Notes under the pieces: model-generated
Told to the model about the DNA's origin: nothing
Database searches by the model: none
The model's input: the letters and a program-made list of their open reading frames with translations, nothing else
Program-made: the position numbers and the translations under genes
Assembly (NCBI GenBank): GCA_019114545.1
Contig: DXFG01000058.1
Span: 1 to 32,119, forward strand
Reading direction: 5' to 3'
DNA length: 32,119 nt
Origin: Candidatus Blautia pullistercoris
GTDB taxonomy: Bacteria; Bacillota; Clostridia; Lachnospirales; Lachnospiraceae
In this document: piece by piece, positions 2,401 to 30,217 of the stretch
Layout: every line of letters begins with the position of its first letter
Position numbering within the stretch: the stretch's first letter is position 1

Positions 2401-3246
2401 TTATTTAGCTAATGTTTTGCCATCTCTTCTTCTTACAATTAACTTGTTAGACTGTTTGTTTTTCTTTCTTGTCTTCAAGCCAAGAGCCGGTTTGCCCCAT
2501 GGAGTACATGGACCTGGGCGTCCGATACCGGTCTTACCTTCACCACCACCATGTGGATGATCGTTGGGGTTCATAACAGAACCACGAACGGTAGGTCTGA
2601 TGCCCATGTGACGTTTACGTCCTGCTTTACCGATGTTGATAAGGCTGTGCTCGCCGTTTCCTACTACGCCGATAGATGCGCGGCAGTTTAAAGGAACCAT
2701 TCTCATTTCGCCTGATGGAAGACGAAGTGTTGCATATTTTCCTTCTTTTGCCATTAACTGTGCTCCGTTACCAGCAGAACGAACCAGCTGTCCGCCTTTG
2801 CCCGGATACAGTTCAATGTTGTGTACCATAGTACCAACGGGAATACTAGCTAAAGGCAGGCAGTTTCCAGGTCTTACCTCGGCATTCTCGCCGTTCATGA
2901 TCTTCATGCCAACCTTTAATCCTTCTGGAGCTAAGATATATGCTTTCTCACCGTCTGCATATGCGATCAGAGCGATGTTAGCTGTTCTGTTCGGATCATA
3001 TTCGATAGTCTTAACTGTTGCAGGGATATCGTCTTTTCTTCTCTTGAAGTCAACGATTCTGTATTTTGTTCTGTTTCCGCCTCCGCGGTGTCTTACTGTG
3101 ATTTTACCTTGATTATTACGTCCAGCATTTTTCTTTAAGGACACAACCAGAGATTTCTCTGGAGTTGAGGTTGTGATCTCGCTGAAATCAGAACCTGTCA
3201 TGTGTCTTCTGGAAGGTGTATATGGGCTGTAGGTTTTAATTCCCAT
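2401..3246 (-). CDS. rplB: 50S ribosomal protein L2 (uL2)
   Basis: [25 protein letters not shown]...; start trimmed from 3264 to MGIKTY, preceded by AAAGGAGAG. Confidence 0.98.
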
Positions 3247-3475
3247 TACTGTCTCTCCTTTCATATCCGCCAGCCGGCAACATGCCCTGGCGTTTCTTTG
3301 CCGCAGCCAAATATCGGATTAATTTTTCTTGACTGCTGTAGTTATCATCGTAGTTTGTACGGGTATGTTCACTCAACTAAACTCGGCTGTCGCCTTCAGC
3401 TCTGCCTTGTCAAGGTCCGTGAACGGGGTCCGACTAAGGCTCAACTATCGCCTGACGGCTCTGTTTCGCCAAGTC

Positions 3476-3775
3476 TTATAACCCCTCAAAAATTTCAATA
3501 TCTTTGCTATCTTCTGTAAGAGTTACGATAGCTTTCTTTGTCTTAGCTGTTTTCCCGAAGGTCATTCCTCTTCTTTTTGTCTTGCCATCTAAGTTCATGG
3601 TGTTGACAGATTTTACTTTTGTTCCTTCGAACATTTTTTCAACAGCTTCTTTGATCATGGTCTTGTTAGCCTCTGTGTGCACTAAGAAAGTATATTTCTT
3701 CTCGCCCATGGCTGCCATGCTCTTCTCTGTTACAATCGGTTTCAGGATTACATCATAATACTGTACGTTTGCCAT
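3476..3775 (-). CDS. rplW: 50S ribosomal protein L23 (uL23)
   Basis: [27 protein letters not shown]. Confidence 0.97.
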
Positions 3776-5054: not shown

Positions 5055-5171
5055 TTTTTACCTCCTGTGAATCTACAGCGGATTACACTGTGTTGTGCAA
5101 TCATCCTAGACAAACAGTCGATATATAGTTCTATATCAACCTTGTAAGGATAATCTCTTCATCAAACAGAA

Positions 5172-5524: not shown

Positions 5525-5629
5525 ACGACAAGCGGCGACTGTACACATTCCCGTGTGTGTCATCTCAAATCTGCACACACTCCCACTCATTCGTGGTAAG
5601 TCTCTTGATGTTATACAGTGACTTGTCGT
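5525..5629 (-). ncRNA. Candidate structured 5' leader of the S10 operon (multi-branch element)
   Basis: Minus-strand pairings: ACGACAAG(5629-5622)/CTTGTCGT(5532-5525), ACTGTA(5619-5614)/TACAGT(5543-5538), CCAC/GTGG (5596-5583), GTGTGTG(5580-5574)/CACACAC(5559-5553). Confidence 0.6.
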
Positions 5630-5719
5630 CAGTTTCCTAACTTGACATTCGCTCCACGGAAAACCTGCCACATAGGCAGCAACCTCACGCTTCATAGCTA
5701 TCATGTCACAGCACTTGTT

Positions 5720-26499: not shown

Positions 26500-26740
26500 A
26501 ACCATCTGCTTAATAGTTACAAAGGGCGACAAAGCCGCGGTACCACCTTTATTTATCACTCAAAGGTCCTGTAACGGGGACAAACCGGGAAAACCTACCA
26601 AATCTCACCCTTACAGGCAATCTCCTTCAGCCTTCCGGTTCAAAAGCTACCTTCCGCCCTTTTTCCTTAAACAATCTTTCAGCCGATGAATTGTTCTCTC
26701 TGCAAGTTCCCAGAGCGTACTCCTCTTTCTCATTACCTTT
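26500..26740 (-). promoter_or_regulatory. T-box leader of valS
   Basis: Minus strand T-box motif AAAGGTGGTACCGCGGC (around 26533-26550), stem I GAGGAGTACGC, probable specifier GUA in GAAGGTAGCTTTTGAA. Confidence 0.9.
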
Positions 26741-26808
26741 TTCTTTCGATGCCATGGATTTCTTTGCACTGCGTACTCCCGAAATCCATACATCTTCTCA
26801 TTTTTCTT

Positions 26809-29984: not shown

Positions 29985-30200
29985 GGGATTTCAAACTTTG
30001 CACGGAAGTTTTCACCTTACTGCTATCAAGCAGGTTTCCTGACTTATGGTTCTCTGCTCTGCCTCTCCTTCTCATACTTGCGTACAATGGATTTCTCTGG
30101 CTTCGCTCCCCAAATACAGTGACCGGATCGCTCAGGATTCTCACCTGATTCCCTTTTCATCAATGTTGTGCGGTCAACATCGATGCACTTAATAGGTTTA
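29985..30200 (-). promoter_or_regulatory. Cobalamin (B12) riboswitch
   Basis: Minus strand AAAAGGGAATCAGGTGAGAATCCTGAGCGATCCGGTCACTGTA ... AAGTCAGGAAACCTGCTTGATAGCAG (B12-box core) with flanking P2 and 3' hairpins. Confidence 0.9.
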
Positions 30201-30217
30201 TGGAATTATACATCTGT

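Follow-up and report, generated by a model that had tools for sequence, protein, structure and literature searches.

The window, i.e. the whole 32,119-nt stretch of DNA that was analysed, carries on its minus strand the start of the S10 operon, in which the RF03136 leader is followed by rpsJ, rplC, rplD, rplW, rplB and further genes down to rpsQ. The spacer between rplW and rplB occupies positions 3247-3475 of the minus strand (229 nt), and the rplB downstream of it is 91% identical to the rplB of Blautia sp. MSJ-19, in line with Blautia being the probable genus. The features considered in the present work, given in the order of transcription, are the following.

5623-5703, minus strand: S10-Clostridia leader RF03136 (98.6 bits), which is known to regulate the operon from upstream
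5072-5109, minus strand: covarying hairpin before rplC, CUAGGAUGA-UUGC..GUAA-UCCGCUGUAGA, in the rpsJ-rplC spacer (5055-5171) and not part of the repeat
3476-3775, minus strand: rplW (L23), according to the ORF list and the operon annotation; its stop codon TAA (3476-3478) abuts repeat unit 1
3432-3475, minus strand: repeat unit 1, an H1-type hairpin with truncated 5' end, GACUUGGCGAAAC..GUUGAGCCUUAGUC; alone it folds at -16.2 kcal/mol (z -2.9)
3367-3424, minus strand: repeat unit 2, an H2-type hairpin, GUUCAC..GUGAAC
3303-3336, minus strand: hairpin P1', GCAGUC-AAGAAAAAUUAAUCCGAUAUUU-GGCUGC, with a 22-nt loop, in single copy per genome
3268-3292, minus strand: hairpin P2, CGCCAG-GGCAUGUUGCCGG-CUGGCG, already named in the original prediction
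3247-3262, minus strand: RBS of rplB, GAAAGGAGAGACAGTA
2401-3246, minus strand: rplB (L2), 281 aa

Elsewhere in the window, a T-box leader (26519-26742, minus strand) and a cobalamin riboswitch (30012-30207, minus strand) score above the Rfam gathering threshold.

The original prediction had pointed out the unusual length of the rplW-rplB spacer. This holds against the other junctions contained in the window, which range from -14 to 39 nt, with the exception of rpsJ-rplC (117 nt), which was not mentioned. The two imperfect copies of about 45 nt that it had placed at 3374-3417 and 3431-3475 are exact both in coordinates and in strings. They are identical in 32 of 46 columns, and not one of 2000 dinucleotide shuffles of one copy aligns as well (mean 0.3 vs 15). 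They look repeated partly because (C)TTAG is present in both arms of each hairpin. The GTTCAC/GTGAAC pairing, the CGCCAG..CTGGCG hairpin before the rplB RBS and the three occurrences of GGCGA on the minus strand are also there as described. For 3249-3490, the fold of the transcribed (minus) strand has a z of -2.7 relative to shuffles, one in 200 of which is as good, while the fold of the plus strand is no better than those of shuffles (z -1.1). No Rfam model matches the rplW-rplB spacer, even at E values up to 5.

G+C-rich hairpins located 3' of a stop codon could in principle serve, inside the operon, as intrinsic terminators of transcription or as attenuators. We consider this extremely improbable, as neither unit is followed by a U run (AUACCCG follows unit 2) and essential genes lie downstream.

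A comparison among congeners divides the spacer into two parts. The last ~90 nt before rplB are always kept, whereas the two-copy part is optional. The latter is complete in G000, G004, G006, G012 and G015, reduced to a single unit in G007 and G016, diverged in G009 and G011, and absent from G001, G003, G008, G010, G013, G017 and G018. Unit 1 follows the same lines, being present in G004, G006, G012 and G015 and absent in G007, G016 and G018. Unit 2 of the window has lost its core motif, reading GACA where the congeners keep RYGA. The last ~90 nt before rplB are a conserved element distinct from the repeat.

These observations bear directly on the possibility that all 229 nt of the spacer, together with the repeats, form a single r-protein-responsive or processing element that controls L2 onwards. 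Such an element would be in line with the stable fold of the transcribed strand, with the sense orientation in the operon and with the small number of operon junctions at which the repeat is found. However, the repeats are missing or halved in close congeners where the rplB-proximal part stays (absent, for example, in G018, G013 and G003), and they are also present after pgk, in V-ATPase-like and decarboxylase operons, and dispersed in the genome, such that this explanation is largely refuted and appears to us very improbable. As the repeats are optional at rplW-rplB and are found at other junctions and elsewhere in the genome, they are not a conserved rplB-specific protein site. One conserved r-protein element spanning the entire spacer was accordingly rejected on the basis of the presence and absence of the repeat among congeners.

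The mid-operon element of the original prediction is, in other words, partly supported. It may correspond, as an r-protein site or a processing site, to the rplB-proximal hairpin, which is conserved, keeps its structure and lies directly 5' of the rplB RBS, but not to the ~45-nt copies, which are optional and dispersed. The prediction had proposed to look for conservation and covariation in relatives, and these are seen for the rplB-proximal part, with no conservation for the repeats. It had also asked about an already described Rfam family, and neither part matches one. Taken as a whole, the spacer is best explained as a composite, in which a dispersed hairpin repeat was inserted upstream of a conserved rplB leader, and we regard this reading as probable.

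The segment 3367-3475 consists of two adjacent units that belong to a family of interspersed hairpin repeats in the Lachnospiraceae. In each unit, an arm (C)TTARYGA pairs with an arm GARYTTAG(T). The resulting CUUAG/CUUAG helix has a U.U mismatch at its centre and is flanked on the inner side by tandem G.A steps. A BLASTN search of the window's own genome with the window copy returned the locus itself and otherwise chance matches, and degenerate patterns were needed to find the repeat beyond the rplW-rplB locus. The strict pattern CTTAGYGA-N5..35-GARYTTAGTG, applied to 150 genomes of the family, yields 121 matches in at least 38 genomes, with up to 14 per genome, compared to 2 for the reversed pattern. 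It is important to note that this pattern fixes the mismatches, and conservation is therefore claimed for the variable positions and not for the U.U and G.A mismatches. The R/Y positions covary (GC/GC, GT/AC, AT/AT and AC/GT), and the inner stem is complete in 21 of 50 thinned copies, compared to 2.1 in shuffles. The repeat alignment (n=19) has a covariation score of 0.550 vs 0.185 when shuffled, and in the hairpin 89.5% of the cells are paired, vs 70.8% when shuffled and 22-48% when slid. No Rfam match was obtained at the repeats in 14 other loci, and the literature searched by words or motif letters, mostly papers available without subscription, gave no relevant account of a described Lachnospiraceae repeat.

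Exact matches to the composite of an H1 followed by an H2 unit in the same orientation number 12 and are spread over 8 of the 200 genomes covered and over 7 genera, while the reversed pattern has no match. The repeat is also found at rpsN-rpsH and rpsH-rplF, in a V-ATPase-like operon and in a decarboxylase operon, and after pgk, where in G160 the composite forms a tandem array with a period of 117 nt. A restriction of the repeat to r-protein operons was dropped after the family-wide matches of the strict pattern and the pgk copies.

In one genome, G119 (L145-L155), ~14 matches, most of them near-identical, lie within long inverted repeats. About a dozen of these inverted repeats are near-identical, ~130 nt long and tipped by the repeat hairpin, and we note in passing that they may represent a recently spread MITE-like element. 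In G101 (L182, L183), G078 (L184) and G048 (L181), a tip hairpin GGCACTTAGCGA..GAGCTTAGTGCC or GTCC is located inside long unrelated inverted repeats, which suggests a second architecture of the repeat family.

Within the S10-spc operon, the repeat is found in 19 of 39 loci, at rplW-rplB, rpsN-rpsH and rpsH-rplF, and in one case at rpmC-rpsQ. The operon spans ~15 kb and contains about 22 of the 121 family matches, compared to an expectation of ~0.6; the assignment was made by hand from contig positions, and by tblastn for split contigs. The copies in the operon are oriented in the sense direction in 29 cases and antisense in 2 (uncorrected for ancestry), while outside r-protein operons the corresponding numbers, 15 and 8, amount to a weak preference (p 0.21).

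The copies usually begin at a stop codon. In the 39 operon loci, sites lacking the repeat mostly end in TAA, and TAG|GC is the usual reading at sites bearing it. When rpsN-rpsH and rpsH-rplF are pooled, the stop codons are TAG 18, TGA 2 and TAA 1 with the repeat, and TAG 10, TAA 35 and TGA 1 without it. The Fisher test for TAG vs TAA gives p=5e-8, uncorrected for phylogeny, and several of the TAG sites scored as being without the repeat contain remnants of it. An exception to the switch to TAG is rplW, where most sites, including that of the window, keep TAA. Since filled sites read TAG|GC and empty ones TAA, the simplest reading is that the repeat would insert between TA and A of the stop codon. 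The pairs of loci compared (G015 with G016 and G000 at rpsH-rplF, and G018 with G016 at rplW-rplB) have flanks too diverged to give a clean empty and filled pair with a resolved right border, and the mobility of the repeat is for this reason something that we infer.

Two rpsN-rpsH spacers deserve separate mention. In L087, one repeat pair is nested inside the H2 unit of an older pair, which suggests successive insertions. The spacer of L113 is 418 nt long and consists of some five hairpins in tandem, all copies of a different, unrelated repeat, directly after TAG|GC.

A serious rival to any role of the repeat is neutral carriage, in which the units are MITE-like passengers that insert at TA and survive where they do no harm, with no function as RNA. 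The TA at the left border fits with this, as do the near-identical matches inside the long inverted repeats of G119 and the weak orientation preference outside r-protein operons. Yet the copies sit at the stop codon despite the presence of other TA sites in the spacers, and neither the strong sense bias inside the operon nor the enrichment there would be expected of passengers. On balance, we judge neutral carriage to be possible but somewhat unlikely.

The other part of the composite, the rplB-proximal element, has a fixed position and a single copy, and was found in 16 of 16 congeners in which the rplB site could be located. Its genus form is GCAGUC-(22 nt)-GGCUGC, then CGCCAG..CUGGCG, and then the RBS. 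In P1', all 6 pairs are kept in 12 sequences, two of the pairs being changed on both sides. P2 reads CACCAG..CUGGUG in G004 and its relatives (CGCC/GGCG to CACC/GGUG, i.e. G-C to A-U) and is lengthened in G003, G008, G009 and G010.

At the level of the family, the hairpin before rplB has the form CUAU-NNNN-(6-9)-NNNN-GAUAAUAAA, for example CUAU-ACGC-loop-GCGU-GAUAAUAAA, with 4 bp between fixed flanks. Spacers were picked by the 3' flank alone (55 of 94). All 4 pairs are formed in 45 of these 55, with 13 different stems, whereas shuffled arms form them in 22 on average and in 30 at most. The curated alignment A2 (n=38) has a covariation of 0.782 vs 0.306, which is indicative only, as its sequences were chosen to pair, the unbiased figure being 45/55. 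Rfam gave no match at this hairpin in two loci carrying it.

On these grounds, the rplB-proximal hairpin is a credible, and in our view probable, mid-operon r-protein leader that has no Rfam match. P1', which has a longer loop, is possibly the genus form of the family-wide hairpin, to judge from where it lies and from a partial resemblance in sequence. A leader at this gene is not without precedent, as an L2 leader candidate has been put forward at rplB for Alphaproteobacteria (Eckert 2020, PMC7247131).

Similar hairpins precede other genes of the operon. The motif AGGAUGA-NNNN..NNNN-UCCGCUGUAGA before rplC is present in 33 of 35 loci with no Rfam match, and all 4 pairs are formed in 31 of the 33 (shuffles: mean 16.7, max 23), making it a candidate L3/rplC leader. 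Directly before rplF, 30 of 34 loci have CUGAAAACAGA-hairpin-CCGAAAAUYUAAGU (rpsH-rplF spacers, e.g. L090 and L093); the hairpin covaries strongly and is complete in 30/30 (shuffled 15.8, max 21), and Rfam gave no match for it in the loci scanned. Directly before the rpsH RBS, ACAUGAAAAGUCUAAA is kept in most of the genus (rpsN-rpsH spacers, e.g. L080 and L087) and is possibly an S8-related site.

The junctions that are long and variable, namely rpsJ-rplC, rplW-rplB, rpsN-rpsH and rpsH-rplF, are those followed by a gene that has its own conserved motif. The S10-spc operon would then be split into separately led blocks, and the repeat may be tolerated at the borders between them because no tightly coupled genes are separated by an insertion there.

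We now consider how the two parts of the spacer might act. The repeat would behave in a REP-like manner, in that it would spread as copies and be tolerated at junctions followed by a gene with a leader of its own. In the mRNA, it is expected to fold directly behind the terminating ribosome, and it would therefore probably slow termination or shield the upstream cistron from 3'-to-5' decay. In E. coli, according to earlier work cited in PMC12306157, REPs located less than 16 nt from the stop codon lower translation and stall ribosomes, and a hairpin that starts at the stop should act likewise or guard the upstream message against 3'-to-5' decay. The rplB-proximal hairpin would be a mid-operon leader, most likely read by L2, that controls rplB onwards. 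Going further, an undescribed mobile hairpin element may target stop codons, entering inside TA|A and rewriting the stop to TAG, and may have colonised the essential S10-spc operon and other busy Lachnospiraceae operons, where, once transcribed and folded against the ribosome at termination, it would tune the ratios of neighbouring cistrons exactly where the downstream gene has its own r-protein leader. This extended scenario is speculative, and we consider it unlikely to hold in full.

Finally, we compare the two parts with known systems. The repeat shares several features with the REP/BIME elements of Enterobacteria and Pseudomonas, these being short imperfect hairpins, interspersed as palindromic units in intergenic regions, arranged in composite pairs, present several times per genome (here in 38/150 genomes) and often lying within 15 nt of a stop codon. 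Its 5' edge at filled sites, TAGGCC, resembles the enterobacterial REP start GTAGGCC (PMC2817692). With respect to the GTAG-like tetranucleotide of REPs, the foot of the hairpin reads TAG|GCC at most filled rpsN/rpsH sites, and TAA or TGA elsewhere. In contrast to REP/BIME, the repeat has a U.U and tandem G.A core, begins within the stop codon, occurs in few copies in most genomes and is concentrated at r-protein operon junctions. The alternating orientation of adjacent REP units is not seen in the composites, where H1 and H2 are direct.

These likenesses raise the question of whether the repeats are genuine REP/BIME elements that owe their movement to a RAYT-type Y1 transposase, as would also fit with the Y1 proteins of RAYT size in G034, G054 and G056, whose open frames have 261-283 aa. 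However, the Y1 tyrosine transposase (PF01797) is absent from 14 of the 26 genomes searched. These include G000 and G015, and also G009, G012, G013, G016, G075 and G113, which are at least 99% complete, and all eight carry copies of the repeat. With no Y1 transposase in many carriers and the units being direct instead of alternating, we do not grant the repeat REP membership and hold a RAYT-driven origin to be quite unlikely.

The rplB hairpin is similar to the Alphaproteobacterial L2 leader candidate (PMC7247131) in being a structured conserved RNA directly before rplB in the S10 operon, with L2 as the presumed ligand. The hairpin described here comes from another phylum and has 4 bp with fixed CUAU and GAUAAUAAA flanks. 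RF03136 is likewise an r-protein leader of the same operon, but it is located before rpsJ, and neither its sequence nor its model matches anything in the rplW-rplB spacer.

By this comparison, the repeat is a REP-like element without Rfam match, and the rplB hairpin is probably a new r-protein leader. A stop-codon repeat concentrated in r-protein operons offers a natural test of how structures touching the stop affect termination and cistron ratios, an effect so far shown for REPs in E. coli. The covarying hairpins before rplB, rplC and rplF, none with an Rfam match, suggest in turn that the long S10-spc transcript of the Lachnospiraceae is divided into separately controlled blocks.
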